Source: Isoptericola halalbus
GTDB lineage: Bacteria > Actinomycetota > Actinomycetes > Actinomycetales > Cellulomonadaceae
Length of the DNA stretch: 64,000 nucleotides
NCBI GenBank assembly: GCA_009663185.1
Contig: VJZX01000012.1
Span: 1 to 64,000 of the forward strand
Direction: 5' to 3'
Below the pieces are notes generated by a model. The model had not been told where the DNA came from, ran no database searches, and worked only from the letters and a program-made list of their open reading frames with translations. Below, one piece after another: positions 25,654 to 42,223 of this stretch. A program made the translations under genes and the position numbers. Each line of letters starts with the position of its first letter. Within the stretch, counting starts at the first letter, position 1.

Positions 25654-26595
25654 TCAGCCCTTGACGCCGGACTGGGTGAGGCTCGCGATGATCCAGCGCT
25701 GGGCCAGGAGGAAGAGCACGAACGCGGGCGCGATCGCGATGACCGTCGCGGCCATGACCTGGGCCAGGTTTCCGGCACCGTACGGGCCGAGCAGGAGCAC
25801 GAGCGCGAGCGGGAGCGTCGCGGTCTCGGTGCTGCTGAGGAGGATCGACGGCGCGAAGTACGCGTTCCAGCTCGTCAGGAACGTGATGATCCCGAGGGTG
25901 GAGACGCCGTTGCGCGCCAGCGGGAGCGCGACGAGCCGGTACGTCCCCCACGCGGAGGCGCCGTCGAGCCGTGCCGCCTCGAGGATGGACTCCGGGAGCG
26001 ACAGGAAGAACTGCCGCATGAGGAAGACTCCCAGCGCGCCGGTGAGGCCCGGCAGGATCAGGCTCAGGAGGTTGTCGACCAGCCCCCACGAGCTCATCAT
26101 CAGGAACAGCGGGATGATCGTGACCTGCGCGGGGACCATGAGGGAGGCCAGCAGCAGGACGAAGATCGAGCTCCGGCCGGGGAACCGGAGCCGGGCGAAC
26201 GCGTAGCCGGCCATAGGCGCGGTGACGATCATGCCGACGCTCGTCGCGATCGCCACGATCGCGCTGTTGAGCATGTTGCGCAGGATCGGCACCGGGCCGC
26301 CCACGGCGTCGGCGAAGTTCGACCACCGGAACTCCGTGGGCAGCCACTGCGGCGGCAGGTCGTAGGCGTGCCCCGGCGACCGCAGGGACGTGGTGAGCAT
26401 CCACAGGAACGGGGCGATCATCGCGACCGCGCCCAGCCCCAGCAGGACCATCGCGACGACCTGGCCCGCGCTGACGCGGCGCACTCCCCGCCGTCGGCGG
26501 GCGATCGGGGCGGGACGATCCCCCGGGAGGACCGGTCGCGCCTCGGTCGCGCCCGCCTCGCCGGCGGGCAGGCTGACGACGGCGTGGTTACTCAT
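25654..26595 (-). CDS. Carbohydrate ABC transporter permease (MalG type), fructan-type operon
   Basis: A 313-residue permease with a 45-residue basic N-terminal lead and six hydrophobic segments; the EAA loop is EAARLDGASAWGTYRLVALP. C terminus QRWIIASLTQSGVKG is typical for MalG. It overlaps the end of the upstream permease gene by 8 bases and is followed, 24 bases later, by the GH172 gene with AAAGGA as ribosome-binding site, so transport and hydrolysis are in one operon. Confidence 0.9.
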   Translation of the reverse strand: MSNHAVVSLPAGEAGATEARPVLPGDRPAPIARRRRGVRRVSAGQVVAMVLLGLGAVAMIAPFLWMLTTSLRSPGHAYDLPPQWLPTEFRWSNFADAVGGPVPILRNMLNSAIVAIATSVGMIVTAPMAGYAFARLRFPGRSSIFVLLLASLMVPAQVTIIPLFLMMSSWGLVDNLLSLILPGLTGALGVFLMRQFFLSLPESILEAARLDGASAWGTYRLVALPLARNGVSTLGIITFLTSWNAYFAPSILLSSTETATLPLALVLLLGPYGAGNLAQVMAATVIAIAPAFVLFLLAQRWIIASLTQSGVKG

Positions 26596-27517
26596 AGTGG
26601 ACCCACCGCTTCCTCATCCGGAACTGCACGAGCGTGACGACGAGGATCAGGGCGAAGAGGCTCACCGCGATCGCCGACGCGTAGCCCATGTCGTACGAGC
26701 TGAACGCCTTCTCCGTCAGGTACATGACGACGCTGCGCGAGGAGTCGCCGGGCCCGCCGCGGGTCAGGACGATGATCGACTCGTAGATCTGGAAGGCGCC
26801 GATCACCGTCGTGGTGACGTTGAAGAACGTCGCCTGGCTGATCATCGGCAGGACGATCCGTCGGAACCTCTGCCACGGCCCCGCCCCGTCGATCTCCGAG
26901 GCCTCGACGACGTCGCGGGGCACCTCCTGGAGCGCCGCGACGTAGATCAGCATCGCGAACCCGATGTTGCGCCAGGTGTCGACGACGATGACCGTGACCT
27001 TCGACATCGACGGGCTGTTGAGCCAGTCCACGGGCGCGACGCCGATCGTCGACAGGTAGTAGTTGACGATTCCCGTGTCCTTCTGGAACAGCGCCTGCCA
27101 GATGATCGAGACGTAGACCAGCGCCACGAGGTACGGGAAGAAGTACGCCGAGCGGAACAGGACCGTGAGCCAGCGCGGCATGTGCTGGTTGATGAGCACC
27201 GCCGCCGCGAGCGCGACCGCGTTGATGAGCACGACCGCGGCCGCGACGTAGACGAACGTGTTGCCGTAGGTCTGCAGGAGACGCTCGTCGCCGAGCATCT
27301 TCGTGTAGTTGTCGAGACCCACGAGCTCCGGGGGCCGCAGGATCGTGTACTTCGTGAGCGAGAGGTAGATCGCGGCGAGGACGGGCCCGAGGACGAAGAC
27401 GACGAACCCGAGGACGGACGGTGCGATGAACGCGTACCCGGTGATCGCCTCGCGCCGGACGGCCGACGTGCGCCACGTGCCGGCGGCCTGGCGGGTGCTA
27501 CTGGTCGGCGAGCGCAT
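26588..27517 (-). CDS. Carbohydrate ABC transporter permease (MalF type), fructan-type operon
   Basis: A 309-residue permease. The start is the ATG at 27517 (MRSPTSSTRQAAG), which lies 20 bases inside the end of the binding-protein gene; the frame is open further upstream but there it is arginine/serine-rich. Hydrophobic segments start at AITGYAFIAPSVLGFVVFVL; the EAA loop is EASEIDGAGPWQRFRRIVLP. It pairs with the downstream MalG-type subunit. Confidence 0.9.
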   Translation of the reverse strand: MRSPTSSTRQAAGTWRTSAVRREAITGYAFIAPSVLGFVVFVLGPVLAAIYLSLTKYTILRPPELVGLDNYTKMLGDERLLQTYGNTFVYVAAAVVLINAVALAAAVLINQHMPRWLTVLFRSAYFFPYLVALVYVSIIWQALFQKDTGIVNYYLSTIGVAPVDWLNSPSMSKVTVIVVDTWRNIGFAMLIYVAALQEVPRDVVEASEIDGAGPWQRFRRIVLPMISQATFFNVTTTVIGAFQIYESIIVLTRGGPGDSSRSVVMYLTEKAFSSYDMGYASAIAVSLFALILVVTLVQFRMRKRWVHYE

Positions 27518-28814
27518 CGCGGACCTCGTCGTCGGCCTTGGCGAGCTCCGTCTCCACGTCGGCCCCGGCCATGATCTTGTCCATGGCCCGCATGAACGCC
27601 GGCTCGAGCGTGTTGAAGACCGTCGGGGCGGGTACGGGCCGCGCCGACCCGATCGACCGGTAGTAGAGGTCGGCGCGGGCGGGGAACTTCGCGAACTCCT
27701 CCGACATCGCCGCCACCTCCATCGACGGGACGGCCGCACCGGCGGTCGCCCAGTCCTTCTGCGTCTCCTCGCTCGCGAGCGCCTTGATGAGCTCCCACGC
27801 GAGGTCCGGGTTCTCGGAGGTCCCGGAGATCGCGAACCCGCCGCCGCCCCAGACCGTCGTCTGCTCGGTGTTGCGGGGCCAGGGCAGGACGTCGTAGTCC
27901 GTGAAGCCGGCGTCCTCGAACGGTCCGACCAGCCAGTGCCCGGCGCCGGTCATCGCGACCTTGCCCGCCGGGAAGAGCTGGTACGGGTCGGCGCCCTTGG
28001 GCTGCGGGGCGACTCCTCGCTCGACGACGAGGTCGCGGACCCACTCGATCGCCTCGACCGTCGCGGGGTCGGACATCGTGGGCTCGGAGAGGTCGTCGCT
28101 CATGGTCGACGCCGAGCTCGTGTAGAGCCACGGCATGAGGCCGAAGTTGAAGTACGGCAGCCCGAACCCGTAGACCTTGTCCTCGCCGGACCCGGTCGTG
28201 AGCTGCTCCGCGATCTCGACGAAGTCGTCCCAGGTCCAGTCGTCGGCCGGGCGCTCGATGCCTGCCTCCTCGAACATCCGGGTGTTGTAGTAGATGAGCA
28301 TCGAGTTCCACGTGTTCGGCACGAGGTACTGCGACCCGTCGGAGGAGAAGCCCTCGACCAGGGTGGGGTTCATCGCCTCGAAGAGCGGGCCCGACTCCGG
28401 GTCGTTGGCGAGGTAGCCGTCGAGCGGCGCGAAGAGCTCGTTGTACACGCCGAGCTCGAAGCCCTCGGTCGCGATGTTGATGACGTCGGGCGCGTCACCG
28501 GCGGCGACGGACGCGACGAGCTTGTTCACGTACTCGGTCCACGTCGTGATCGGGGTGAAGTCGTTCTTTACGGTGACGTTCGGGTAGGCCTCGCTGAACC
28601 GCTCGATCGCGGCGTCGTAGACCGCCTTGTCGGCGGGGTCGCCCCAGTTGGAGATCGTGATCTCGGCAGTGACGTCCGACTCGGGCGCGGTGTAGGGGCC
28701 GTCGGTGCCGGGGGTCTCGGCCGGCCCGCCGCCGGAGCAGCCGGCGAGGGTCACGAGCCCGGCCGCGACGGCCGCGGCGGTGAGCGCGCGGGCGCGCCTG
28801 CGGATGGTTGCCAT
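27498..28814 (-). CDS. Extracellular sugar-binding lipoprotein, fructan-type operon
   Basis: A 438-residue family 1 solute-binding protein. Signal and lipobox LVTLAGC at residues 19-25; mature part starts with a Gly/Pro linker, then AEITISNWGDPADKAVYDAA, NTWNSMLIYYNTRMFEEAGI, GKVAMTGAGHWLVGPFEDAG and a final helical lobe. ATG 28814 is preceded by GGGAG. It follows the LacI gene by 65 bases on the same strand and starts the transporter part of the operon. Substrate inferred from GH32/GH172: fructo-oligosaccharide or difructose anhydride. Confidence 0.9.
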   Translation of the reverse strand: MATIRRRARALTAAAVAAGLVTLAGCSGGGPAETPGTDGPYTAPESDVTAEITISNWGDPADKAVYDAAIERFSEAYPNVTVKNDFTPITTWTEYVNKLVASVAAGDAPDVINIATEGFELGVYNELFAPLDGYLANDPESGPLFEAMNPTLVEGFSSDGSQYLVPNTWNSMLIYYNTRMFEEAGIERPADDWTWDDFVEIAEQLTTGSGEDKVYGFGLPYFNFGLMPWLYTSSASTMSDDLSEPTMSDPATVEAIEWVRDLVVERGVAPQPKGADPYQLFPAGKVAMTGAGHWLVGPFEDAGFTDYDVLPWPRNTEQTTVWGGGGFAISGTSENPDLAWELIKALASEETQKDWATAGAAVPSMEVAAMSEEFAKFPARADLYYRSIGSARPVPAPTVFNTLEPAFMRAMDKIMAGADVETELAKADDEVRDALADQ

Positions 28815-28879
28815 GGAATGCTCCCTTGCATCTGTGGTTGATCGAGGCCCGCGCGGCGCGCGGAGCGAGACAGGACGGC

Positions 28880-29887
28880 TCAGGCGTGGCGCCCGAGCGC
28901 GGGACCGACGGCGGTGGAGTCGCGCTGCTGGACGACGGACGGGATCCGGACGGTCTGCGGCTCGCGGTCCTTGTCGGCGATCCGCTCCCGCAGGAGGCGC
29001 ACCGCCGCGGCACCGACCTCGAAGGCGGGCTGGCGCACGGTCGTGAGCCGAGGCTGGAACAGGTCGGGGTAGGCGAAGCCGTCGAACACGGCGAGCGCGA
29101 TGTCGTCCGGCACGGCGATCCGGGCGTCCTGCAGCGCCTCGAGCGTCTGGGCAGCGAGGACGGTCGAGCACGCGATCACCGCCGTCGGCAGCGACGTCGC
29201 GAGCGCGGCCGCGATGTCGGCGGGGACCGTGTCGGCGCCCCGCTCCCCCTCGACGACGAACTGGTCGGCGCGGTCGAGGCCCGCCTCGTCGACGACCGCG
29301 AGGAACCCGTCGCGCCGCTCGCGCAGCGTCGGGACCCGCGTGTCGCCGGCCACCAGCAGCATCCTGCGGTGGCCCTGCCCCACCAGGCCGCGGACCAGCC
29401 CGCGCATCGCGGCGTCGTTGTCGGCGCCGACCTGGTCCGCGTCGTCGACGCCGAGGCGGTCCATGAGCACGAAGGGCACGTCCGAGCCGCGCAGCTCGGC
29501 GAGGACCTCGTCGCGCGAGCCGGCCACACGGGCCAGCACCATCCCGTCGACCCGGCGCTCGAGGAGTGCCCGCACGGCGTTCTCCTCCCGCTCGGGTGAC
29601 TCGTCGGAGTTGGCGAGCAGCAGCGTGAGACCCTCGGCCGCGGCGGCCTCCTGGACCCCGTGGACCATCTCGGCGAACGCAGGCTCGCCCGCGTCCGACA
29701 CGACGAGGCCGATGCTGTCGGTCCGCGAGCGCCGCAGCGCGCGCGCCAGTGCGTCCTGGCGGTAGCCCGACTCCTCGACGGCGCGCAGGACGCGGTCCTT
29801 CGTCTCCTGCTCGACTCGCCGCGTGCCGTTGAGCACGTGCGAGACGGTCGTCACCGACACTCCCGCCAGCCGAGCCACATCACTCAT
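28880..29887 (-). CDS. LacI family transcriptional regulator of the fructan-type operon
   Basis: A 335-residue repressor starting at ATG 29887 (MSDVARLAGVSVTTVSHVLN, the complete HTH), followed by hinge ESGYRQDALARALRRSRT and an effector domain ending QRDSTAVGPALGRHA. A longer frame reaches 29965 but would put the HTH in the middle and run through the promoter. It heads the operon LacI, binding protein, permease, permease, GH172, GH32, and is likely autoregulated. Confidence 0.9.
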   Translation of the reverse strand: MSDVARLAGVSVTTVSHVLNGTRRVEQETKDRVLRAVEESGYRQDALARALRRSRTDSIGLVVSDAGEPAFAEMVHGVQEAAAAEGLTLLLANSDESPEREENAVRALLERRVDGMVLARVAGSRDEVLAELRGSDVPFVLMDRLGVDDADQVGADNDAAMRGLVRGLVGQGHRRMLLVAGDTRVPTLRERRDGFLAVVDEAGLDRADQFVVEGERGADTVPADIAAALATSLPTAVIACSTVLAAQTLEALQDARIAVPDDIALAVFDGFAYPDLFQPRLTTVRQPAFEVGAAAVRLLRERIADKDREPQTVRIPSVVQQRDSTAVGPALGRHA

Positions 29888-29908
29888 CCGGGCCACATCG
29901 CCTCCAGC

Positions 29909-29981: not shown

Positions 29982-30926
29982 TCAGCCCCGGTGGCGACGG
30001 AGGGTCGCGAGCACCTCCGCGCGGTGCGGCGCGGCCTCTTGCGCCCCCGGCCGGGTCACGGCGAGCGCACCGGCGACTCCCGCAACCCGCGCAGCCTCCG
30101 CCAGGTCCACGCCACGCGCCAGCTCGGCGGCAAGCACGCCGCAGAACGTGTCCCCCGCTCCGGTGGTGTCGACGGCGACGACCTCGATCCCCGGGACGCG
30201 GACGTCGAGGCGGCCGCGGCGCGCCACGAGCGACCCCTCGCCACCCAGGGTCACGACGACGGCGGGCACCCGGGAGAGCAGCACGCGTGCGAGCTCGGAG
30301 GGCTCTTCCGCGGGGTTCTCCCCTCCGCGTCCGGCGAGGTCGGCCGCCTCGTGCTCGTTGACGACCAGAACGTCGACCGCACGCCACACCGCGTCGGGCA
30401 GGTCCCGCGAGGGCGCCGCGTTGAGGACGAACGGCACACCGGGCCGGCGCGCCCCGGCCGCAGCGACGACGGTCTCGACCGGGATCTCGAGCTGCGCGAG
30501 GACGACGTCGGCCGACGCGATCAGCTCTCTCGCGCCGTCGTCGACCGTCACGCGGTCGTTCGCGCCCGGGGCGACCACGATCGCGTTCTCCCCGTCGGTC
30601 GACACCGTGATGAGCGCGGTGCCGGTCGGGGCGCCGACCCTCGGCACGCCGTCCGTGCGCACCCCCGCCCCGGCGAGCGACCGCAGGAGGAGCTCCGCGC
30701 CGTCGTCGCGCCCGAGCGCTCCGACCAGCACGGTGTCGGCCCCGCCGGCGCGCGCAGCCGCGACGGCCTGGTTGGCGCCCTTGCCGCCGGGACTGCGGCG
30801 CAGCTCGCCGCCGAGGATCGTCTCCCCACCGCGCGGGTGCCGCGGCACGTCCACGACCACGTCGACGTTCGCCGATCCGACGACGACGACGCGCCCGGCG
30901 GCGTGCTCACCACCGCTGTTGCCCAT
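29982..30926 (-). CDS. Ribokinase-type PfkB sugar kinase
   Basis: A 314-residue kinase. N-terminal VVVVGSANVDVVVDVPRHPR and GGKGANQAVAAARAGG give the substrate-binding signature; VDTTGAGDTFCGVLAAELAR carries the anion hole and catalytic aspartate. ATG 30926 is chosen for AGGAG six bases upstream; a GTG 18 bases earlier is possible. Close to ribokinase in both signatures. Last gene of the GntR/Tct operon; it probably phosphorylates a sugar released by the aldolase-type enzyme upstream. Confidence 0.86.
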   Translation of the reverse strand: MGNSGGEHAAGRVVVVGSANVDVVVDVPRHPRGGETILGGELRRSPGGKGANQAVAAARAGGADTVLVGALGRDDGAELLLRSLAGAGVRTDGVPRVGAPTGTALITVSTDGENAIVVAPGANDRVTVDDGARELIASADVVLAQLEIPVETVVAAAGARRPGVPFVLNAAPSRDLPDAVWRAVDVLVVNEHEAADLAGRGGENPAEEPSELARVLLSRVPAVVVTLGGEGSLVARRGRLDVRVPGIEVVAVDTTGAGDTFCGVLAAELARGVDLAEAARVAGVAGALAVTRPGAQEAAPHRAEVLATLRRHRG

Positions 30927-30963
30927 GCCCTGCTCCTGGCTCACGCGACCGATCGTGCCGTGC

Positions 30964-31821
30964 TCAGCGGTGCGCCGCGACGGCATCACCGATCGCGGCG
31001 CGTGTCGCGTCGTCGACGGCGGGCAACGCCATCCGCGACGCCCAGGCGGCGCCGTCGCGTGCGGCCATCGCCGCCTTGAGCCGCGGGACGGTCGGACCGA
31101 CCAGCGGGACGATCTCCTGCACGACCCGCTGGAGCCCGTCCGCGGCGGGGTCGCCGGCGTCGAGCGCCCGCGCGAGCGCGGCGAACGTCTCGGGGAATGC
31201 GCTCGAGACCCCGGACACGACGCCGGTCCCGCCGGCCGCGAGGACCGCCGGGAGCGTGGCGTCGTCGCCCGAGTAGAGCTCCTGGCCCTCGCCCAGCACG
31301 GCCGCATACTCGGGCAGCCGCGCCGCGGCCCCGCCCGAGAGCTTGGCGCCCACCATGCCCGACAGCGCCATGACGCGCGCGAACACCTCCGGCTGGACCA
31401 CCATCCCGGTCCGCTCGGGGAAGAGGTACGCGTAGACCTCGGCCTGCGGGTGCGCCTCGGTGAGCGAGCGGAAGAACGTGACGACGCCGTCGTCGTCGGT
31501 CGGCAGGTAGTACGGGCTGAGCAGGGTGAGGCGCCGGATGCCCAGCGCTGCGACGGCGTCGGCGAGACGCAGCACCTGCCGCGAGCTGCCGTGACCGAGA
31601 TGCGCGATGACCCGCTCCGTGCCAAGCATGTCCACCGACCGCCGGAACAGCTCGACCCGCTCGTCGTCGTCGAGCGCGGGGAACTCTCCGGTCGTCCCGG
31701 CGACGAGCGCGCCGCCGACGTGCGGCGCGATGGCCGCGAGCGCCGCGTCGTAGGCCGCGAGGTCGAGGTCGCCGGTGGGCGTGAACGGGGTGGGTACGGC
31801 GCTGATGATGCGAGCGGTCAT
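30964..31821 (-). CDS. Dihydrodipicolinate synthase / N-acetylneuraminate lyase family protein
   Basis: A 285-residue (beta/alpha)8 class I aldolase of the DapA superfamily: AVPTPFTPTGDLD, then GTTGEFPALDDDERVELFRR, YLFPERTG (position of the catalytic tyrosine, YN-PGRTG in DapA) and GMVGAKLSGG with the Schiff-base lysine. The LFPERTG and KLSGG variants are unlike true DapA, and lysine synthesis makes no sense in this operon. A sugar-acid lyase or dehydratase role is more likely. ATG 31821; GGAAG upstream. Confidence 0.82.
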   Translation of the reverse strand: MTARIISAVPTPFTPTGDLDLAAYDAALAAIAPHVGGALVAGTTGEFPALDDDERVELFRRSVDMLGTERVIAHLGHGSSRQVLRLADAVAALGIRRLTLLSPYYLPTDDDGVVTFFRSLTEAHPQAEVYAYLFPERTGMVVQPEVFARVMALSGMVGAKLSGGAAARLPEYAAVLGEGQELYSGDDATLPAVLAAGGTGVVSGVSSAFPETFAALARALDAGDPAADGLQRVVQEIVPLVGPTVPRLKAAMAARDGAAWASRMALPAVDDATRAAIGDAVAAHR

Positions 31822-31861
31822 GGTCTTCCTTCGAGTCGGTGGACGACGGCGGTCGAGCAGG

Positions 31862-32962
31862 TCAGGAAGCGAGGAGCGCGAGCGGGACCACGGCTTCGAC
31901 GATGCCACGGCGCTGCCAGGTGTAGGTGATGAGGAGCCCGTCGCGGTCCAGCACCGCCGCCGGGTAGGAGTACTCGCCCGTGCCGTCGGTGCCGACGCCG
32001 CCGTCGGCGGGCTCGAGTGCCGGGCCCGGGGGCGGCGGCGACGGGACGAGCGGCGGCTCGTCCTCGACAGGCGTCCGACCGTCCTCGACGACGAGCGTCT
32101 GCCGCCACGTCCGTCCGTCGTCGCCGGAGAGGGAGACGACGAGCGGGCAGCGAGCGCCCCAGTCACCTGCGACGGGATTGTGGACGCACGCGACCCGACC
32201 GCCCGGCAGGGCGACCACGGCGAGCCCTGAGTTGTTGTTCGGCAGGTCGGTCGGCTCGGCGACCGACCACGTCCGGCCCCCGTCCGTCGAGGACGAGCGC
32301 AGCGCCCGGCCCTCGGTGCTGCGCAGGAGAGCGTGCACGCGCCCGCCAAGGACCCACAGGGCGGGCTGGATCGCGCCGGCGCCCCGCAGACGCCGACGGT
32401 CGAGCGGGATCGGTGCGGCGTGCCACGTGCGGCCGCCGTCCTCGGAGCGGTCGACGAACGGCTGCCAACGCGGGCGGTCACCCCATTCCTCGGTCGACCC
32501 CGGGGCGAGCCACGCGCCCCCGGAGGCGAGAACGGGCGGGTTCTTCACCGGCCCGCGGCCCCCGACGTCGCCCGGGACGAGCTCGGCCGCGTCCGACCAC
32601 GTCCGCCCACCGTCGGTCGAGCGGCGCACCCACGTGGTCCAGGCCGAGATCCGTGCGCCGCGACGCAGGAACAGCCAGAGATCGCCCGCCTGGCCGTGCG
32701 CGAGCACCGGGTTCCAGCGCGCGACCTCGCCCGCGTCGATGACGACGGGCTCCTCCCAGGGACCTCGCGGTCCCCGCCGCGCGAGCCACACCCGGTTGTC
32801 CGGGGTGCCCTCGCGCGTGCCGGCGAACCAGGCGGCGAGCGCCCCGTCCGCGTGGGTGAGAACCGTCGACGCGTGCGCCTGGCGCCAGCCGGGGTGGTCG
32901 ACCGCGACCCAGCGTCGGCGCACGCGCGGGACCACCTGCGCCGCACGAACGTCCGGAGTCAC
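31862..32962 (-). CDS. Sialidase-like (exo-alpha-sialidase/BNR repeat) protein
   Basis: A 366-residue six-blade-propeller-type protein without signal peptide. Four Asp-box motifs are seen: STDGGRTWS (near residue 120), SEDGGRTWH, STDGGRTWS and SGDDGRTWR. WFAGTREGTPDNRVWLARRG near the N terminus and KNPPVLASGGAWLAPGSTEE fit the DUF4185/sialidase-like group often annotated exo-alpha-sialidase; the arginine triad is not certain. It starts at GTG 32962, overlapping the tctA stop. Probably intracellular hydrolase or lyase acting on the imported acid sugar. Confidence 0.75.
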   Translation of the reverse strand: MTPDVRAAQVVPRVRRRWVAVDHPGWRQAHASTVLTHADGALAAWFAGTREGTPDNRVWLARRGPRGPWEEPVVIDAGEVARWNPVLAHGQAGDLWLFLRRGARISAWTTWVRRSTDGGRTWSDAAELVPGDVGGRGPVKNPPVLASGGAWLAPGSTEEWGDRPRWQPFVDRSEDGGRTWHAAPIPLDRRRLRGAGAIQPALWVLGGRVHALLRSTEGRALRSSSTDGGRTWSVAEPTDLPNNNSGLAVVALPGGRVACVHNPVAGDWGARCPLVVSLSGDDGRTWRQTLVVEDGRTPVEDEPPLVPSPPPPGPALEPADGGVGTDGTGEYSYPAAVLDRDGLLITYTWQRRGIVEAVVPLALLAS

Positions 32963-34479
32963 CGGCTGCGCCCGGCGGCGGCGCGCGGTCGCTCGGAGGG
33001 CGCCTCCGCACGGCGCGAGGCTCGCACCCGGGCGACGATCGGCGTCGCGAGCCCGACGAGGGCGAGCACCAGCAGCACCGCCGAGATCGGCTGCGTGACG
33101 AGCGCCGTCGGGCCGTCGATGAGCAGGGTGCGGCGCAGGTTCGCCTCGGCGAGCGGGCCCAGCAGCAGGCCCAGGACGACGGGGCCGGCCGGGAATCCGG
33201 TGCGCTTCATGGCGAGGCCCAGCACACCGGAGCCCAGCATGACCCACACCGTGTACATCGAGTTCGTGGTCGTGTAGGTCCCGACGACGCAGAAGATGAG
33301 GATCCCGGCCCACAGGAAGTGGTGGGGCAGGTCGAGCAGCCGCACCATGCCGCGCATGCGCACGAGACTGATTCCGAGTGACAGGACGGTCGCGACGATC
33401 ATGATTGCGGCGATCGTGACGACGAGCTCAGGGTCGTTGCTGAACAGGGACGGCCCGGGCTGAAGTCCCCAGATGACCATCGACCCGATCATGACGGCCA
33501 TGACCGAGTCGCCCGGGATACCCAGGGCCATGGTCGTGGTCAAGGAGCCGCCGAGCGTCGCGCTCGACGACGTGTCGGCCGCCGCCAGGCCCTCGAGCGA
33601 GCCCTTGCCGAACTTCTCGGGCTCCTTCGACATCCGCTTGGCGCGGTCCCAGCCGATCAGGCCGGCGATGTCGCCGCCCGCGGCAGGGACGATGCCGACG
33701 ACGGTGCCGATCACGGAGCCAAGGGCGAACGGCTTGCGCATCTGCGCGAGCTCACCGCGCGTGGGCCACCACCGGCCCAGGGAGGAGATGGGCCGGAGCA
33801 CGTGCGCTCGATGCACCAGGAGCTGGTCGAACAGCTCCGCGATGCCGAAGAGGCCGATGATCACGGCGATGAAGGGCAGACCGGAGTTGAGGTCGTTGAC
33901 GCCGAAGACGAACCGCTCGTCGCCCGTGACGGGGTCGCGGCCGACGGTGGCGATGGCAAGACCGCCGATGCCGGCGATGACGCCCTTGAGGATCGACCGG
34001 GAGGAGATCGAGATCATGACCGTGAGGCCGAAGACGACGAGCGCGAACATCTCCGCGGGTCCGAAGTTGAGCGCGAGCTGCGCGATCGGCCGGGCCGCCA
34101 GGAGGAACACGGCCATGGACACCAGGATCCCGCCCGTGGTGACGAACGATGACGCGACGAGCGCGAGGCCGGCCTTGCCCTGCTTGGCGAGCGGGTAGCC
34201 GTCCAGCGTGGTGGCGATGGCGGCGGGCGTGCCGGGCGTGTTGACGAGGATCGACGGGATCCGGTCGCCGTAGTTGGCGCCGACGTAGATCGTGAGCAGG
34301 ACCGCGAGGCCCTGCACCGGCTCGAGGGTCAGCGTGAAGCCGGCCGCGAGCGCGACGGCCATGGACCCGGTCACTCCGGGGAAGGCACCCACGAGGGTGC
34401 CGACGAGGAGCCCGGCCAGGAGGCAGACGAGCACCGTCGGGTCGAGCAGCGGGGCGAGCCCGTCGACGAGGACGTTCAC
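32959..34479 (-). CDS. tctA: Tripartite tricarboxylate transporter large permease TctA
   Basis: A 506-residue TctA with about twelve hydrophobic segments and the hallmark GAFPGVTGSMAVALAAGFTL near residue 33, IYVGANYGDRIPSILVNTPG, GYPLAKQGKAGLAL, and GDIAGLIGWDRAKRMSKEPE. GTG 34479 overlaps the tctB stop. With TctB and TctC it forms a secondary carboxylate importer that uses a periplasmic binding protein. Confidence 0.94.
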   Translation of the reverse strand: MNVLVDGLAPLLDPTVLVCLLAGLLVGTLVGAFPGVTGSMAVALAAGFTLTLEPVQGLAVLLTIYVGANYGDRIPSILVNTPGTPAAIATTLDGYPLAKQGKAGLALVASSFVTTGGILVSMAVFLLAARPIAQLALNFGPAEMFALVVFGLTVMISISSRSILKGVIAGIGGLAIATVGRDPVTGDERFVFGVNDLNSGLPFIAVIIGLFGIAELFDQLLVHRAHVLRPISSLGRWWPTRGELAQMRKPFALGSVIGTVVGIVPAAGGDIAGLIGWDRAKRMSKEPEKFGKGSLEGLAAADTSSSATLGGSLTTTMALGIPGDSVMAVMIGSMVIWGLQPGPSLFSNDPELVVTIAAIMIVATVLSLGISLVRMRGMVRLLDLPHHFLWAGILIFCVVGTYTTTNSMYTVWVMLGSGVLGLAMKRTGFPAGPVVLGLLLGPLAEANLRRTLLIDGPTALVTQPISAVLLVLALVGLATPIVARVRASRRAEAPSERPRAAAGRSR

Positions 34480-35015
34480 AGCGGCACCTCGAGAAGCGTG
34501 TGGAAGAGCAGGTAGATGAAGCCGGTCGTCAGGGCCGGGAAACCGAGCAGCACCTGCCATCCACGGCCGCCGAACACCGCGGTCAGGGCGAGGAGAAAGA
34601 CGGGCGTGGCGGCGAGGAACCCGACCAGCGGCCACGCGACGAGGTACGCCGCGGTGAGCGCGACCGTGATCCCCACGCGCACGAACCCCGCGCGGGTGGA
34701 CGCCTCCAGGTCGTCGCGCGATGCCGGCCGCACGACGGACACGACGAGCAGCGCGACGGCCAGGACGAGGCCGACGGTCCCGAGGAGCTCCGGCCACCAC
34801 CGGGGGTCGACTCCTCCGGTCTCGGCACGCAGCTCGATCCGGCGCGCGAGGAACGCCAGTGCACCGAGGAACACGAGTGCACCCAGGGCGGAGGTGATCT
34901 CGAGCGGTCGCGAGGTCGGCGCGGCGGGTACCGCGGCCTCGTCCGACGAGCCAAGGGCGGGGGCCACCCCGTCCGTACGGGACGGGGTGGCCTGCGAGTG
35001 ACGAGCCTCGTTCAT
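34476..35015 (-). CDS. tctB: Tripartite tricarboxylate transporter small subunit TctB
   Basis: A 179-residue membrane protein: a 40-residue soluble N terminus, then four hydrophobic segments (SALGALVFLGALAFLARRIE; WWPELLGTVGLVLAVALLVV; then two more toward LLFHTLLEVPL). The size and the WWPELLG motif fit TctB. Its ATG shares the A with the tctC stop (TGATG), and its stop overlaps tctA. Confidence 0.88.
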   Translation of the reverse strand: MNEARHSQATPSRTDGVAPALGSSDEAAVPAAPTSRPLEITSALGALVFLGALAFLARRIELRAETGGVDPRWWPELLGTVGLVLAVALLVVSVVRPASRDDLEASTRAGFVRVGITVALTAAYLVAWPLVGFLAATPVFLLALTAVFGGRGWQVLLGFPALTTGFIYLLFHTLLEVPL

Positions 35016-35983
35016 CAGCCGTTCCCGAGGATCGTCCCGAACCGGTCGTACTCGGTGCTCACGAAGTCCGCGAACTCCTCGGCCGTCTTGTAGACCGGCA
35101 GGGCACCGGAGGACGAGACGGTCTCGACGAAACCGTCGGACGTCGCGGCCTCCTCGATCGCGCTCTCGAGCGTCGACCGGACGTCGTCCGGCAGGCCCTT
35201 GGGTGCGTAGATGCCGCCCCAGCCGCCGAACTCGAGGTCGTAGCCCTCCTCGGCGGCCGTCGGCACGTCCGGCAGGTCGGGGTGGCGCTCGTCGTGGAAG
35301 ATGGCGAGCGCCCGGACCTGGCCCTCGGCCACGGCGCCCGATACCTCGCCGGAGCCGGCGACGGCGGCGTCGACCTGACCGCCCATGGCGGCGGCGAGAG
35401 CGGGAGCGCCGCCGTCGAACGGGACGGGCGTGACCTGGGCACCGGTCGCGTCGGCGAGCCCGAGCGCCGCGGCTTCCCAGATCGATCCGGCGCCGGAGTT
35501 GGCGACGGAAAGCGGCTCGGCGTTCGCTCCCTCGATGAAGTCCGCAAGCGTCTGGTACGGGCTGTCGGCCGGGACGACGAGAACTCCCGGAGCGAGCATG
35601 ATCTGCCCGAGGAAGTCGTAGTCGGCCGGGTCGACGTCGAAGTTCTGGTGGCCCAGCATCGCGATCTCGACGGGGACGAAGCCGATCGTGTAGCCGTCGG
35701 GCTCTTGGTCGGCGACGTACTGCATCGCGGTCGAGCCGGACGCACCTGGCCGGTTCTCGACCACGATCGACGTGTCGAGGATCGGCTCGAGCTCTCCGGC
35801 GAGGGCGCGCGAGGTCAGGTCGGACCCGCCGCCGGCAGCCGCCTGGACGATGAGCGTGATGTCGTCGCTCGGGTAGTCCGCCTCGCCGCCGGTGGCGTCG
35901 GCGCCGGAGCAGGCGGAGATGGTCAGCGCGGTGGCGGCGAGCGCGGCCCCGGTGGAGACCGAGCGTGTGCTGCGTCGGGTCAT
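35015..35983 (-). CDS. tctC: Tripartite tricarboxylate transporter substrate-binding lipoprotein TctC
   Basis: A 322-residue Bug-type binding protein. Lipobox TISAC at residue 25; then DITLIVQAAAGGGSDLTSRA, SIVVENRPGASGSTAMQYVA, GYTIGFVPVEIAML and LPDVPTAAEEGYDLEFGGWG, all family signatures. The ligand is normally a carboxylate bound through two water molecules, which fits a sugar acid. First gene after the GntR regulator. Confidence 0.93.
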   Translation of the reverse strand: MTRRSTRSVSTGAALAATALTISACSGADATGGEADYPSDDITLIVQAAAGGGSDLTSRALAGELEPILDTSIVVENRPGASGSTAMQYVADQEPDGYTIGFVPVEIAMLGHQNFDVDPADYDFLGQIMLAPGVLVVPADSPYQTLADFIEGANAEPLSVANSGAGSIWEAAALGLADATGAQVTPVPFDGGAPALAAAMGGQVDAAVAGSGEVSGAVAEGQVRALAIFHDERHPDLPDVPTAAEEGYDLEFGGWGGIYAPKGLPDDVRSTLESAIEEAATSDGFVETVSSSGALPVYKTAEEFADFVSTEYDRFGTILGNG

Positions 35984-36040
35984 GCGGTATCAACTCCCTT
36001 GTCGGTACTGCAGCGGGCTGGTGGTGCGGTCGGGTGCGAG

Positions 36041-36736
36041 TCAGGGCTCGGCGACGAACCGTGAGTAGGCGGTGAGCATCCGACGGTGCGACCCGTCAAG
36101 GTGCTCTTCGAGGAGCGCGAGCGCTCGGGCGGTGTCTCCGTCCTGGACGACCTGCAGGAGAGCCGCGTGGTCGCCGAACGTCGGCGCAAGGTCCTTGTCC
36201 TCGGCGTTCGTGACGGCGAGCATGCCCGCGAAGGTGGGGCGGTACTGCTGCCAGATGGCGTCGAGACGGCGGTGGCCGGAAGCCGCGTAGAAGGCGGAGT
36301 GGAAGTCGAGGTCGGCGGTGGCGAACGCCGTCGGGTCCTGGTTGTCCGCGGCCTGGCGCATGCGGTCGAGCGCGGCAGCTGCGGGGCCGTAGTCGGTGCT
36401 CGCGTCCTCCATGCACAGCCGCACGGCCTCGAGCTCGAGCAACCTGCGGAGCAGGTAGAGCTCCTCGATGTCGTCCAGCGTGAGCCCGACGACGAACACG
36501 CCCCGCCGACGCGACTCGACCAGCCCCTCGGTCTCGAGCTGGCGAAGCGCGTCGCGCACCGGGCCCCGGCTCACGTCGAACGTCTCCGAGAGCTGAGACT
36601 CGACGAGATGCGTGCCGCGCCGCAGCTCCCCGGTGATGATGAGCCGGCGCAGGTGGTCGACGACGTGCTGCCCGAGCGCCGGAGCTGGACGCACGCTCAG
36701 CGCCTCGCTGCGCCACTGACTCTCGACGGTGCCCAC
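36041..36736 (-). CDS. GntR family regulator, FadR/VanR type
   Basis: A 231-residue regulator: winged HTH at residues 25-85 (IITGELRRGTHLVESQLSET, VSRGPVRDALRQLETEGLVE) and an all-helical FCD effector domain (EELYLLRRLLELEAVRLCME; DLDFHSAFYAASGHRRLDAI; HAALLQVVQDGDTARALALL) with the metal-coordinating Asp/His residues of the FCD group. Ligands of FCD regulators are usually sugar acids or other carboxylates, matching the Tct operon that it heads. Confidence 0.9.
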   Translation of the reverse strand: MGTVESQWRSEALSVRPAPALGQHVVDHLRRLIITGELRRGTHLVESQLSETFDVSRGPVRDALRQLETEGLVESRRRGVFVVGLTLDDIEELYLLRRLLELEAVRLCMEDASTDYGPAAAALDRMRQAADNQDPTAFATADLDFHSAFYAASGHRRLDAIWQQYRPTFAGMLAVTNAEDKDLAPTFGDHAALLQVVQDGDTARALALLEEHLDGSHRRMLTAYSRFVAEP

Positions 36737-36780: not shown

Positions 36781-36810
36781 TGTAATCGATTGCTGCTAAC
36801 GGTTAACCGT
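36781..36810. promoter_or_regulatory. Adjacent LacI-like and GntR-like operators
   Basis: The gap between the divergent GntR and LacI genes holds GTAATCGATTGC (36782-36793), nearly identical to the perfect palindrome before the fucose-isomerase-like gene, and next to it the perfect 12-base palindrome ACGGTTAACCGT (36799-36810). The first suits the LacI product; the second suits the GntR product. The two regulons may therefore be interlocked here. Confidence 0.55.
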
Positions 36811-36915: not shown

Positions 36916-37935
36916 ATGACGCGCATCATCGACGTCGCCCGCCGCGCAGGCGTCTCGACGGCGACCGTCTCGCGCGTGCTCAACGGCAAGAACGTCCGGC
37001 CCGAGCTCGCGGCCGCGGTGCGTGACGCGGTCGGGGAGCTCGGGTACTCCCCGGACCGCACCGCGCGCTCGCTCCGTCGGCGGCACAGCGAGGTCATCGC
37101 CCTGGTGTTGCCCGACGTCGAGAACCCGTTCTTCACCGCCGTCGCGCGCGGGGTCGAGGACGCGGCGCTCGAGGCCGGGTACTCCGTCGTCCTGTGCAAC
37201 ACGGACGATCGCCGCGACAAGGAGGAGCGCTACCTCGGTGTCGCGGACGACGAGAACATGGCGGGCGTGATCCTCGCGCCGGCAGACGCTACCCCACCGA
37301 TCGGCCGGCTCGTCGAGCGAGGTCGCAGCGTCGTCGTCATCGACCGCCGCGTCACCCACGACGTCGACCAGGTGACGTTCGACAACCGCGCGCTCGGCTT
37401 CCGGGCCACGAAGGCCCTGGTCGACCGCGGATTTCGCCGTATCGCGTGCATCACCGGCCCCGAGACGACCAGCACCGCCGTCGACCGCGCCGAGGGCTGG
37501 CGCGACGCGCTGCACGACGCGGGCCTCGTCGCGGACGACGGCCTGCTCGTCCACGCCAACTTCCGCGTCGACGGCGGCTACGAGGCGATCGGCACCCTGC
37601 TCGGCCGCTCACCGGCGCCCGACGCCGTCCTGGCCACCAACAACCTCGCCGGCGTCGGAGTGCTGCGCGCACTGGCCGACAGACACGGCGGACCCGCGCC
37701 CGCACCGGCAGGGGACGACGGATCCGCAGGTCCGGTGCTCGGCGTCGGGGTGGTGGGCGACCTGCCGTTCGCGACGTCGCGCACGTCGGACGTCGTCATC
37801 GTCCCGCTCAACCCGCGAGATCTCGGAGTGACGGCAGCCGGTCTCCTGCTCGAGCGGATCGCAGGGAGCGACGCCCCCGCCCGGCAGCTCATCCAGGAGA
37901 CCGAAGATCACCGAGAGGGCGTCCGACCGGTATGA
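36916..37935 (+). CDS. LacI family transcriptional regulator
   Basis: A 339-residue repressor; AGGAGG lies six bases before ATG 36916, and the HTH follows at once (IIDVARRAGVSTATVSRVLN; ELGYSPDRTARSLRRRHSEV). The effector domain includes VALVLPDVENPFFTAVARGV and RGFRRIACITGPETTSTAVD. A frame start at 36790 is rejected since it would place 42 non-homologous residues ahead of the HTH. It precedes the fucose-isomerase-like gene by 49 bases and probably represses it through the palindrome at 37958. Confidence 0.9.
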   Translation: MTRIIDVARRAGVSTATVSRVLNGKNVRPELAAAVRDAVGELGYSPDRTARSLRRRHSEVIALVLPDVENPFFTAVARGVEDAALEAGYSVVLCNTDDRRDKEERYLGVADDENMAGVILAPADATPPIGRLVERGRSVVVIDRRVTHDVDQVTFDNRALGFRATKALVDRGFRRIACITGPETTSTAVDRAEGWRDALHDAGLVADDGLLVHANFRVDGGYEAIGTLLGRSPAPDAVLATNNLAGVGVLRALADRHGGPAPAPAGDDGSAGPVLGVGVVGDLPFATSRTSDVVIVPLNPRDLGVTAAGLLLERIAGSDAPARQLIQETEDHREGVRPV

Positions 37936-37957
37936 CCGACGGATCGGCCTTGCGGCT

Positions 37958-37969
37958 GTAATCGATTAC
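37958..37969 (+). promoter_or_regulatory. Perfect palindrome before the isomerase gene
   Basis: GTAATCGATTAC is a perfect 12-base palindrome 15 bases before ATG 37985. A near copy sits at 36782. The CG centre and AT-rich arms are typical of LacI-family operators. Confidence 0.6.
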
Positions 37970-37984
37970 TGGCATCCTCGGCCC

Positions 37985-39649
37985 ATGGCTGACACGAGCC
38001 CCTACACCCTGCCCCCGATCCCCGAGCCGCTAGTCGCACCCGAGAACACGGCCTACCTGATCGCCTCCGGTGACCTGCGCGAGTCCGCCAACGTCGCGGG
38101 CTGGCCGACACAGGTGGAGCTCGAGCGCATCCTCACCGACGCGTTCGCGGCGAACGGCTGGAAGATCGTCCGTGCCAACGAGATCGACCGCCAGACGGGC
38201 CACGGGTTCGTCTCGAGCCAGCGCATGGGCCTCGAGATCTTCAAGACCATCCCGCCGGACGCCCCGCTTGTCGTCGCCGAGGCGGTCTGGCAGTACTCGC
38301 ACCACGTGCTCGCCGGGCTGCGCACGCACCGCGGGCCGATCCTCACCGCCGCCAACTTCGCCGGCGACTGGCCCGGCCTCGTCGGACTCCTCGGCCTCAA
38401 CGCCAGCCTGACGAAGATGGGCAAGCCGTACGCGACAGTCTGGACCGTCGACGGGACGGACGCCTGGTTCCGGGACGCCATCCGCTCCTGGGTCACCACC
38501 GGGCGCATCGAGCACGACGACTCGCACGTCCACCCTCTCCCCGCCCTGCCGACGTCACCGGAGACCGAGCTCGGCGACGCCGTCGCTACCCAGCTCCTGC
38601 GGGACAAGGCGATCATCGGCGTTTTCGACGAGGGCTGCATGGGCATGTACAACGCGATCTTCGACGACGAGCTCCTCAACGGGATCGGGATCTACAAGGA
38701 GCGGCTCTCCCAGTCCGCCCTGTGGGCCGAGATGCAGCGAGTCACCGACGACGAGGCCGACGAGGTCCAGCGCTGGCTCGAGGACGTCGGCATGACGTTC
38801 CGGCTCGGCAACGACGAGGCGACCGAGCTCACACCGACGCAGCTGCGCTGGCAGCACAAGATGTACATCGCGGCCTTGCGCATCGCGGACGACTTCGGGC
38901 TCGACGCGGTCGGCATCCAGTACCAGCAGGGCCTCAAGGACCTCTCCCCCGCGTCCGACCTGGCCGAGGGCCTGCTCAACAACGTCCAGCGGCCGCCGGT
39001 CCGCTCGCGCGACGGATCGCGGGTCCTGTGGGACGGCCAGGCGTTCCCGCACTTCAACGAGGCGGACGAGGGAGTCGCGGTCGACGCGCTGGTCACCCAC
39101 CGCGTCTGGACCGCGATGGGGCTCGACCCCGCGACGACCCTGCACGACGTGCGCTGGGGCGAGGAGTACGACGGGCAGTTCGTCTGGGTGTTCGAGATCT
39201 CGGGCTCGGTGCCCGCCTCGCACCTCGTGGGCGGCTACGCCGGCGCCGAGGGCTGGCGGCAGGACCCGGTCTTCTTCCCCGCCGGAGGATCGACGATCAA
39301 CGGCGTGTCGAAGCCCGGCGAGATCGTGTGGTCCCGGGTCTACATCGCCGACGGGATCCTCCAGGTGGACCTCGGCCGCGCCTCGGCGATCGCGCTTCCC
39401 GACGACGAGACGTGGCGACGCAAGGAGGCCACCAACCCCGAGTGGCCCATCATGCACGCCGTGCTGCACGGCATCACCCGCGACCAGTTCATGGCGCGGC
39501 ACAAGGCCAACCACCTCAACGTCGCCTACGCGCCCGACGCCCGGACGGCCGACAAGGCGCTCACGGCCAAGGCGGCGTGCTTCGCCGCGCTCGGCATGCC
39601 CGTGCACCTGTGCGGCGAGACGGTTCTGGCCGGCCAGGCGATGGCGTGA
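37985..39649 (+). CDS. L-fucose isomerase-like protein
   Basis: A 554-residue cytoplasmic protein of the fucose/arabinose isomerase superfamily. Recognisable segments: EAVWQYSHHVLAGLRTHRGP and TAANFAGDWPGLVGLLGLN in the first domain; FDEGCMGMYNAIFDDELLNG with the proposed metal-binding acidic residues; IQYQQGLKDLSPASDLAEGL; and the C-terminal HANHLNVAYA-like segment (KANHLNVAYAPDA). FucI proper is about 590 residues, so this is a distinct subgroup. The GH29 fucosidase elsewhere in the window makes fucose a sensible but unproven substrate. Controlled by the preceding LacI gene. Confidence 0.8.
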   Translation: MADTSPYTLPPIPEPLVAPENTAYLIASGDLRESANVAGWPTQVELERILTDAFAANGWKIVRANEIDRQTGHGFVSSQRMGLEIFKTIPPDAPLVVAEAVWQYSHHVLAGLRTHRGPILTAANFAGDWPGLVGLLGLNASLTKMGKPYATVWTVDGTDAWFRDAIRSWVTTGRIEHDDSHVHPLPALPTSPETELGDAVATQLLRDKAIIGVFDEGCMGMYNAIFDDELLNGIGIYKERLSQSALWAEMQRVTDDEADEVQRWLEDVGMTFRLGNDEATELTPTQLRWQHKMYIAALRIADDFGLDAVGIQYQQGLKDLSPASDLAEGLLNNVQRPPVRSRDGSRVLWDGQAFPHFNEADEGVAVDALVTHRVWTAMGLDPATTLHDVRWGEEYDGQFVWVFEISGSVPASHLVGGYAGAEGWRQDPVFFPAGGSTINGVSKPGEIVWSRVYIADGILQVDLGRASAIALPDDETWRRKEATNPEWPIMHAVLHGITRDQFMARHKANHLNVAYAPDARTADKALTAKAACFAALGMPVHLCGETVLAGQAMA

Positions 39650-40528: not shown

Positions 40529-42223
40529 TCACGCACGGCGGATCCGCACGGTCGTGGTGCCCGGCGACGACCAGGTCACGTAGAGGCGAGGGCCGGCGAG
40601 TGCGTCGGTCCCGTCGAGGAACTCGTACGCCTCCCCCGGTCGGTACACGGGCGGCGACGCGTGGTCGGCACCGATCGGCTGCTCCACGCGGAGCGTCGCG
40701 CCGGTGCCGACGACCTCCGCCGCCCTGGTCAGGCGGAACCGGCCGTCCCCCAGGTCGTCCGCGCCGCGCACCTCGCAGTCCCACGGCAGCGCCAGCTCGA
40801 GCGCGTGCGGAGCCGCGAGCCCGCGCGTCGTGATCCCGAGCGTCACGCCGTCGTCGGCGAGGTCGAGCACGACCTCGGTCTCGAGCCGCACGACGTCGCG
40901 ACGCCGCGCTGAGAACGCCATCGACGCCGCGAAGCGCCCCTCGAACTCGAGCGCGTACGCCCCGTCGGGCCGGCGCCGCGCGGCATCGAGCGGCTGGTAG
41001 TACGACGCCGCGATCTCCTCGCGCAGCACGACCCGGTCGCCCACGTGCTCGACATCCGTGGCCCGGAACGGGCCCAGCCCGAAGAAGTCCCGCGACAGCC
41101 GCGCCGAGCGCACGCCGACCCCGCCCAGGCCCAGCCGCAGGAACGTCGGGTTGCAGGCGAGCCCCGAGGCGACCCGCCCGGCCGCCGGCACGTCCGAGCC
41201 GCCGTAGACCGTGACCCACTCCTCGCCGCGCCGCCGGCGCAGCAGCCGGCTCCCGGCGAACCACCGGCTCCCGGCGAACCACCGTTCGCCCGCGCCCGCG
41301 ACCCGCGGCTCGCCGGCACCCATGTCCCCCGCCGCGAGGAGCCCGGCGCGCACGTCGCCGTCGAGCAGCGCGCGCGCCGCTGCGTGGACCGCGTCGACGT
41401 GCTCGGCGGACGCTGCGCGCCGTGTCGCCTCCCGACACCGCGCACAGGCCGCGGCGAACCGCGCGAGCTGGTCGAGGAACGGCCCGAGCGGGTACGACTC
41501 GTACTTCTGGTCCTGCCGCCGGGAGTGCACGGTCTCGATCCCGCCGTCCGGCGCGGCCAGGTCGAGCTGGGCGTGCAGGTTGGCGTGCACGACGTCGAGC
41601 AGGTCGTCGCGACCGAGCGCAACGGCGAGCGTGAGCAGCGACGGGTTGGACACGTGCGCCGCGTAGTTGGGGCTGCGCTCGCTGTAGATGCCGTCGGCGT
41701 CGACGTCGACGCCCTCGGCGAGCCACTCGCGGGCGCGGTCGTGCGCCTCGGGCGCGCCGAGCAGGGTGCCGAGACCCGCGAGCGCCCCGGCGATCTCCCA
41801 CCGATGGTTGGGCGTGTGCACGCCGCCGGCCACGAGCGCGGGCAGCGACCGCCGCAGGATGCGGTCCACGCGCTCCCGGACGCCCGCCCACGCCGACCCG
41901 CGACGCAGCAGCGTCAGCGCGAGCACGCCGTCGGACACCGTGAACGCGGAGTCCGGCGGGGAGGCCAGGTTGTCGCCCGACGAGAACAGGCCCGTCGGCT
42001 CCTGGAGCGCCTCGAGCTCGCCGAGCCAGCCCGTGGCCGCCGCCTCGAGCGTCGCCCGCTCAGGGTCGCCGTCGTCGTGCCCCGCGACGACGGCGGCCAG
42101 CACCATGGCCATGAGGCCGCGGTGGCCCCGGGCGCGCTCGGCCGTGGCCGTGGCACCGGAGGCGAGGTCGTACGCCCGGTCGCGGGCCTCCCGGGCGAGC
42201 GACGCCGCCAGGTCGTCGGCCAC
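40529..42223 (-). CDS. Heparinase II/III-like toroid protein, possible polysaccharide lyase
   Basis: A 564-residue protein without signal peptide. The first 300 residues look like an alpha/alpha toroid (NHRWEIAGALAGLGTLLGAP; YSERSPNYAAHVSNPSLLTL; HSRRQDQKYESYPLGPFLDQ), the rest like a beta-sandwich (VVLREEIAASYYQPLDAARR; GVTLGITTRGLAAPHALELA). Asn-His-Arg and Tyr/Asn-Tyr clusters are placed like catalytic residues of heparinase-type lyases, but no established family is certain. GTG start at 42223, four bases after the permease stop. It probably degrades the oligosaccharide brought in by the upstream importer. Confidence 0.65.
   Translation of the reverse strand: MADDLAASLAREARDRAYDLASGATATAERARGHRGLMAMVLAAVVAGHDDGDPERATLEAAATGWLGELEALQEPTGLFSSGDNLASPPDSAFTVSDGVLALTLLRRGSAWAGVRERVDRILRRSLPALVAGGVHTPNHRWEIAGALAGLGTLLGAPEAHDRAREWLAEGVDVDADGIYSERSPNYAAHVSNPSLLTLAVALGRDDLLDVVHANLHAQLDLAAPDGGIETVHSRRQDQKYESYPLGPFLDQLARFAAACARCREATRRAASAEHVDAVHAAARALLDGDVRAGLLAAGDMGAGEPRVAGAGERWFAGSRWFAGSRLLRRRRGEEWVTVYGGSDVPAAGRVASGLACNPTFLRLGLGGVGVRSARLSRDFFGLGPFRATDVEHVGDRVVLREEIAASYYQPLDAARRRPDGAYALEFEGRFAASMAFSARRRDVVRLETEVVLDLADDGVTLGITTRGLAAPHALELALPWDCEVRGADDLGDGRFRLTRAAEVVGTGATLRVEQPIGADHASPPVYRPGEAYEFLDGTDALAGPRLYVTWSSPGTTTVRIRRA
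41246..41281 (-). repeat. Perfect 18-base tandem duplication inside the toroid gene
   Basis: Two identical 18-base copies (41246-41263, 41264-41281) encode RWFAGSRWFAGS around residue 320. The frame is kept. Confidence 0.85.

Follow-up and report, generated by a model that had tools for sequence, protein, structure and literature searches.

In the NanA-type catabolism of sialic acid, an acidic keto-sugar is imported and cut by a pyruvate lyase of the DapA superfamily, and the sugar that is left is then converted and phosphorylated. Another keto-sugar acid, 3-deoxy-D-manno-octulosonic acid (KDO), is common in nature, being part of Gram-negative outer membranes. It also occurs with 3-deoxy-D-lyxo-heptulosaric acid (Dha) in plant rhamnogalacturonan-II, and both are described as related to sialic acid (PMC12168206). 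A KDO aldolase (EC 4.1.2.23) appears in a 2007 survey's table of validated orphan activities, where it is ranked “difficult” (PMC1940265), and a conversion of 80% after 120 hours was reached when the N-acetylneuraminate lyase from Lactobacillus antri made KDO out of D-arabinose and pyruvate (PMC4016182). As for D-arabinose, the D-arabinan locus of Microbacterium arabinogalactanolyticum has several genes strongly induced by this sugar and a GH172 gene that is induced mildly. A putative isomerase and kinase there would lead from D-arabinose to D-ribulose 5-phosphate, the isomerase being given without a family name in the relevant passages (PMC10509167). GH172 and GH183 activities have been reported (PMC10115798). 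Here we describe a locus from Isoptericola halalbus (genome of 4.1 Mb in 110 contigs) that may bring these themes together. It lies in the first 64,000 nucleotides of contig VJZX01000012.1 (assembly GCA_009663185.1), called “the window” below, and it combines a TctABC-type transporter, a sialidase-like propeller, a DapA-family protein, a kinase, and a divergent fucose-isomerase-like gene. With moderate confidence, and from the sequence, we read it as a catabolic regulon for a 3-deoxy-2-ulosonic acid, most likely KDO.

Seven genes lie on the minus strand (Table 1), and every one scores above the Pfam cut-off for its main family. The adjacent TctA, TctB, and TctC families, all above cut-off, make up a TctABC-type transporter set. 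A sequence-only reading made earlier had listed the same seven co-directional genes, and all are indeed present. It had also given them overlapping ends, which holds for three of the six junctions (1 nt for TctC/TctB, 4 nt each for TctB/TctA and TctA/propeller); the other three have gaps of 57, 40, and 19 nt. The limits it drew, 29982-36736, are too narrow: the LacI-family regulator and the isomerase that diverge from the operon (36916-39649), absent from that reading, are a key part of the unit. The isomerase, which points to the aldose that is released, is the key enzyme of the putative pathway. The kinase belongs to the PfkB superfamily, scores 273.2 bits with TIGR02152 against an RbsK equivalog cut-off of 299.65, and is the genome's sole match to that model below 1e-20; when an FGGY kinase of the Georgenia type was sought in the same genome, the best match was 32%.

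A stepwise model can be proposed. TctABC would import KDO or a small KDO glycoside; the earlier claim that Tct systems are normally tied to citrate-like acids overstates their restriction. The cytosolic propeller would then free or anomerise KDO where needed, and the DapA-family enzyme would cleave KDO to pyruvate and D-arabinose. The FucI-like enzyme would turn D-arabinose into D-ribulose, and the PfkB kinase (FGGY in some relatives) would make D-ribulose 5-phosphate, with GntR and LacI co-regulating both arms. Judging from the genes, D-arabinose is quite likely to be the aldolase product. Since the aldolase superfamily releases pyruvate and the operon would isomerise and phosphorylate D-arabinose, the acid would be KDO or its C4 epimer. 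Gene content, conserved order, the link with the isomerase, and a shared element can be read directly in the DNA, and it is from these that we infer the reactions, the roles of the regulators, and the identity of the acid.

Table 1. Genes and proposed operators of the putative KDO regulon (positions in the window).
Feature	Position	Strand	Remarks
PfkB/ribokinase-like kinase, proposed D-ribulose (or D-arabinose) kinase	29982..30944	-	PF00294 196 bits
DapA/NAL-superfamily protein, proposed KDO aldolase	30964..31821	-	PF00701 127.9 bits
BNR_2 (sialidase-like) beta-propeller, 366 residues	31862..32962	-	PF13088 216 bits; sole PF13088 match in genome
TctA membrane permease	32959..34479	-	PF01970 442 bits; one of three TctA matches in genome
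TctB membrane protein	34476..35015	-	PF07331 58 bits
TctC solute-binding lipoprotein	35015..35983	-	PF03401 162 bits; lipoprotein-type N-terminus by eye
GntR-family regulator, FCD domain	36041..36736	-	opens the operon; PF07729 and PF00392 both above cut-off
AATCGATT, proposed LacI operator	36784..36791		48 bp before GntR start
CGGTTAACCG palindrome, proposed GntR operator	36800..36809		0.02 expected; 2 of 100 shuffles had one
Divergent LacI-family regulator	36916..37935	+	PF00356 and PF00532; start 36916 inferred, open reading frame opens at 36790
AATCGATT, proposed LacI operator	37960..37967		about 25 bp before isomerase start
Fucose-isomerase-like protein, 554 residues, proposed D-arabinose isomerase	37985..39649	+	PF02952 26.0 bits

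The propeller operon is conserved well beyond the window. A first search gave seven propeller loci, of which one with a 35% propeller fragment (L011) was set aside; the six that were kept belong to an Isoptericola metagenome-assembled genome (MAG; L005), two Georgenia, a Cryobacterium, an Arthrobacter MAG, and an Actinomycetales MAG. Within the order, 31 of 396 genomes have propeller matches. One of these is that of the window, four (G105, G200, G256, and G305) are at 54-66% identity, and the other 26, all below 40%, were left out of the count. With G305 and the Actinomycetales MAG, whose matching contigs are equally long (7916), counted once, there are 10 distinct actinobacterial propeller loci including the window. 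Their neighbourhoods were read mainly from tblastn matches, because a simple gene caller merged or shifted some open reading frames in the GC-rich loci. Nine of the ten have the order GntR-TctC-TctB-TctA-propeller-aldolase, with GntR first, and in the tenth the contig stops within TctC. This six-gene order, which does not include the kinase, is kept in other genera at propeller identities of 53-85%, and its recurrence there indicates clustering beyond chance. The tie of the propeller to Tct and aldolase that had been noticed earlier is thus borne out by gene order in actinobacteria, and the same trio is found on a Martelella plasmid. The closest relative of the cluster is the Isoptericola MAG (85% identity for the propeller and 91% for the isomerase). 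The least constant of the seven genes is the kinase, which among the ten loci occurs only in the window, L005, and (at 43%) L010. The isomerase stands beside the propeller operon in six loci, elsewhere in the genome in three (G105, G200, and G256), and was not found in G305, an 89% complete MAG. The layout with a divergent LacI gene and isomerase recurs in L005, L006, and L008, while the isomerase directly follows the aldolase in L009 and L010; L006, L008, and L010 also have an FGGY kinase with it. In L091 (G200:C2:154198-155246), the coding sequence of the propeller continues from one frame into another, while those of its neighbours are open throughout.

The aldolase carries a Lys in GAKLSGG (158) and a Tyr in YLFPERTG (132), presumably the expected Schiff-base and catalytic positions of the DapA/NAL superfamily, so its motifs are less odd than the “non-canonical” of the earlier description. 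It belongs to this superfamily and falls below the cut-offs of both equivalog models, with 32.8 bits against 382 for nanA (TIGR00683) and 112.1 bits against 206.15 for dapA (TIGR00674). Relatives of the aldolase are present in 23 of the 396 genomes of the order, and 16 of these 23 have the isomerase vs. 47 of 396 overall (Fisher p 1.6e-11, relatedness not corrected). The two genes are neighbours in seven of the 23 (the window, L107, L112, L141, L142, L143, and L144). Sixteen further aldolase loci were fetched with their flanks, and the pair is seen as aldolase-isomerase, aldolase-FGGY-isomerase, aldolase-PfkB-isomerase, or divergently. L112, L142, and L143 have GntR, TctC, TctA, aldolase, an FGGY or PfkB kinase, and isomerase (TctB was seen by tblastn only in L143), with no propeller match at the locus, nor in their genomes at 1e-20. 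Because these three do without a propeller yet have Tct, aldolase, and isomerase, the aldolase rather than the propeller should yield the aldose. In L107 and L141 a sugar ABC importer takes the place of Tct, and PfkB genes lie by the aldolase in L107, L141, and L143, as they do in L149 and L155, where there is no isomerase. Transporter, aldolase-type gene, isomerase, and kinase are a recurring core, and the propeller is optional. The import, cleavage, and phosphorylation of a sugar acid suggested in the sequence-only reading would still form a coherent pathway, without the propeller as an essential step.

The isomerase itself provides the link to D-arabinose. Its 47 genomes in the order compare with 4 of 396 in a phylum-wide draw. 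In 25 of the 47 it has a DUF2961 (GH172) gene within 12 kb, in 7 such a gene is elsewhere (including the window, where it is 13.4 kb off and of fructan type), and in 15 none was found; counted per genome, it is present in 32 of the 47 with the isomerase vs. 38 of the 349 without (p 9e-17, relatedness not corrected). Of 20 isomerase loci that were fetched out of the 47 (L095-L114, hand-picked across groups rather than at random), nine have a GH172 gene that resembles the one in L099 at 58-100% identity. The L099 protein scores 707 bits with 8ic8, an exo-alpha-D-arabinofuranosidase by its PDB name, and 120 bits with alphaFFase1, and by these scores it is an exo-alpha-D-arabinofuranosidase orthologue. 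In three of the nine there is, in addition, a DUF4185 (GH183-like) gene; the GH183-like product of L110 passes the Pfam cut-off. LacI homologues adjoin the isomerase in these apparent D-arabinan loci. Because the family is common to D-arabinan-type loci, we infer that the isomerase acts on D-arabinose, which it would convert to D-ribulose. On a 41-row isomerase tree, rows from transporter-aldolase loci and from D-arabinan loci interleave. Over the 20 labelled Actinomycetes rows (11 + 9, with plasmid rows and those of other or unclear context left out), the tree calls for at least seven changes of context, and the approximately unbiased test rejects a single D-arabinan clade (p-AU 0.0024), the labels being taken from gene context and the clade test having been chosen after the tree was seen.

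The two arms also share a sequence element. AATCGATT, the proposed LacI operator, has two sites in the window, one ahead of each arm (0.06 expected; none of 100 shuffles had two). Across 49 loci (958 kb) it has 37 sites vs. 1.6 expected from base composition. Of 31 loci, 18 have it within 250 bp upstream of the isomerase or of the FGGY gene that goes with it; for GH172 the figure is five of nine, and for GntR six of 23 (the window, L005, L006, L008, L089, and L144). The controls give 0 of 17 before the operon-internal TctC and 1.1% in random windows of the same loci. In G105, whose operon (L089) and isomerase (L096) are on separate contigs, the element is found at both. The core GGTTAACC of the proposed GntR operator, CGGTTAACCG, is present before GntR in L005, L006, L008, L010, L089, and L091, was not found there in L009 or L090, and occurs once before an aldolase gene, in L147.

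The AlphaFold2 model of the propeller is good (predicted local distance difference test, pLDDT, 83.8; predicted template-modelling score, pTM, 0.87). Its first Foldseek match is 5hx0, of unknown function, followed by many GH33-type sialidases with template-modelling (TM) scores of about 0.7, identities being 10-20% over the 50 matches listed. PF13088 is over its cut-off and the Asp-box model PF02012 matches three stretches (21.9 bits vs. a cut-off of 27), which with the fold identifies a sialidase-type beta-propeller with Asp-boxes. An alignment of eight propellers shows a conserved Tyr (second Y of EYSYP, motif 330) and conserved Arg residues in LLRS (212) and ARCPL (270). No signal peptide is seen by eye, in agreement with the “signal-less” protein of the earlier reading, so the propeller would act on the imported compound. 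Its role is accessory, perhaps as a KDO glycosidase, our first choice, or as a mutarotase or lactonase, our second. The kinship of KDO and Dha with sialic acid would explain why it resembles a sialidase. Elsewhere, BNR_2 and fn3 proteins with a twin-arginine-like leader by eye are encoded beside a related aldolase in L150 (10335-11999) and L151 (4869-6452); with PF24067, the model of BT_1020-like propellers, they reach 27.5 and 22.2 bits, the cut-off being 27. The window propeller was also considered as a BT_1020-type relative, and this was rejected, as PF24067 gave no match even with expectation values up to 10.

Similar gene sets also occur on plasmids. Nine of the 22 plasmid isomerase matches, hand-picked, were viewed with their surroundings, and in eight an FGGY kinase is found alongside a DapA-, HpcH-, or RraA-type gene, together with MFS, ABC, or Tct transporters. 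The aldolase-family gene is of DapA type in L042, L044, L048, L055, and L056, and of HpcH and/or RraA type in L045, L046, and L049. The Klebsiella pneumoniae plasmid (L042 4726-12627) brings together an FGGY kinase, FucI-like, DapA-like, propeller, MFS, and LacI genes; this plasmid is conjugative, and IS5 and IS110 transposase genes are close to the enzyme set. Seven propeller-bearing plasmid regions were viewed out of 304 records. A DapA-like gene lies near the propeller in L042, L050, and, about 5 kb off, L054, and the Martelella set consists of DapA-like, propeller, TctC, TctB, and TctA genes. The propellers of Croceibacterium (L051) and Monoglobus (L052) are near glycosidase genes of pectin or arabinose type, and those of L047 and L053 are in other settings. 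In two Proteus mirabilis records, the propeller and isomerase matches are about 1 kb apart.

Other substrates can be imagined for the same genes. If the acid were another ulosonic acid (KDN-, Neu5Ac-, or nonulosonate-like), the isomerase and kinase would act on a released hexose or amino sugar. The GH33-like fold of the propeller and the presence of N-acetylneuraminate lyase in the aldolase superfamily are in its favour, but the very low nanA score, the lack of any amino-sugar enzyme among the operon genes by Pfam (the rest of the genome was not searched for them), and the frequency of the isomerase in D-arabinan-type loci make this unlikely. A sialic acid pathway proper was set aside on the nanA score and the gene content of the operon. 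One could also suppose that a D-arabinose-acid glycoside is imported and hydrolysed by the propeller, the isomerase and kinase taking D-arabinose and the aldolase a different keto-acid such as 2-keto-3-deoxygluconate. A glycosidase-like propeller would suit such a substrate, and each half could have its own enzyme, a D-arabinose isomerase for one and a pyruvate-type aldolase for the other. It is rather improbable, however, in view of L112, L142, and L143, which have Tct, aldolase, and isomerase with no propeller match at the locus or, at 1e-20, in the genome, and in which an enolase-type sugar-acid dehydratase query found no match (other dehydratase families were not sought).

We give an equally low probability to an aldolase whose substrate is a shorter sugar acid, cleaved to give a triose or tetrose; the isomerase link would then reflect the clustering of unrelated sugar genes. 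It would account for L149, L153, and L155, which pair GntR-Tct-aldolase with dihydroxyacetone-kinase (Dak1/Dak2) genes and whose genomes (G329, G387, and G252) gave no isomerase, and for the mixed contexts of aldolases at about 35-41% identity. It fits poorly with an isomerase that is contiguous with the aldolase operon in several arrangements, and with AATCGATT on both arms in the window, L005, L006, and L008. The L153 locus also has a SIS-domain gene.

The KDO pathway has its own difficulties, and the Dak loci and the other settings of most aldolases at 35-41% identity are among them. The step from D-arabinose to KDO is one of chemical reasoning. The isomerase scores 26.0 bits with PF02952, under the cut-off of 29.3, has no match in the PDB, and gave a poor AlphaFold2 model (pLDDT 61), not good enough for use; its likeness to the M. 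arabinogalactanolyticum isomerase is one of locus make-up. It is away from the propeller operon, or not found, in G105, G200, G256, and G305, and in the 23 aldolase genomes it is elsewhere in nine and not found in seven. Among the 20 isomerase loci, L100 has a distant DUF2961 (30%) and 10 others have none. The comparison of DUF2961 neighbours with solved enzymes uses one gene, that of L099, and as for the GH183-like proteins, that of L104 is below the Pfam cut-off and that of L110 has no match in the PDB. AATCGATT was chosen after inspection of intergenic sequence, as one of five patterns tried, and was not found before GntR in 17 of 23 loci nor at 13 of 31 isomerase loci; these genes and loci without the element count against a universal rule. 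On plasmids, a Chloroflexota record (L043) has the isomerase without the rest, and the Klebsiella and Martelella aldolases belong to a divergent DapA subfamily.

The window contains other gene groups. Downstream of the propeller operon, a separate operon (22955-29900) with a GH32 gene, an alphaFFase1-type (difructose-dianhydride) DUF2961 gene, ABC importer genes, and a LacI gene looks like one for fructan use. Its DUF2961 gene (24265-25629) was considered as a D-arabinan part and rejected: the product is alphaFFase1-like, with 519 bits to 7v1v and 97.6 to 8ic8, and the GH32 gene is beside it. A 564-residue open frame (40532-42223) has no Pfam match at 0.001. Further along, a glycosidase-rich region (45984-56568) has GH2 (beta-galactosidase type), GH38, and GH4 genes, and an AAA/DUF4143 gene.

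In the limited literature collection searched, by title and abstract opening, no paper describing genes of bacterial KDO catabolism was found, and none combining Tct, sialidase, and dihydrodipicolinate synthase. If the KDO pathway is correct, an activity listed as a validated orphan in 2007 gains candidate sequences, a propeller group annotated as exo-alpha-sialidase gains a function, and so do “fucose isomerase” genes of actinobacteria, Deinococcus, and rhizobia. A broader picture, which we offer only tentatively, would be a widespread, modular KDO pathway that combines the orphan KDO aldolase, a D-arabinose isomerase common to D-arabinan degradation, and a propeller representing a new family of cytosolic KDO glycosidases or mutarotases, able to open KDO glycosides from plant rhamnogalacturonan-II or Gram-negative envelopes.

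Set beside known systems, the proposed pathway follows the general scheme of NanA-type sialic acid catabolism. It differs from it in the nanA score, far below the cut-off, in an operon without an amino-sugar enzyme, and in the proposed product, a pentose instead of N-acetylmannosamine. The KDO aldolase EC 4.1.2.23 is likened to the DapA-family gene by the reaction proposed for the latter. GH33 sialidases have in common with the window propeller the beta-propeller, the Asp-boxes, and a similar fold, whereas the latter is predicted to be cytosolic and is only distantly related in sequence. GH143 is represented by the Dha hydrolase of Bacteroides thetaiotaomicron, which we take to be BT_1020; it finds a parallel in the PF24067 matches of the secreted propellers of L150 and L151, beside a related aldolase, but not in the window propeller, which has neither this match nor a visible signal peptide. 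The D-arabinan locus of M. arabinogalactanolyticum, with its GH172 exo-enzyme, ABC importer, and putative isomerase and kinase, is similar in make-up to loci in which the FucI-like gene studied here is found, as far as the passages that describe it go (PMC10509167). The difference is in the source of D-arabinose, which is a polysaccharide in that organism, whereas here Tct would bring in a sugar acid from which the aldolase would release the pentose.

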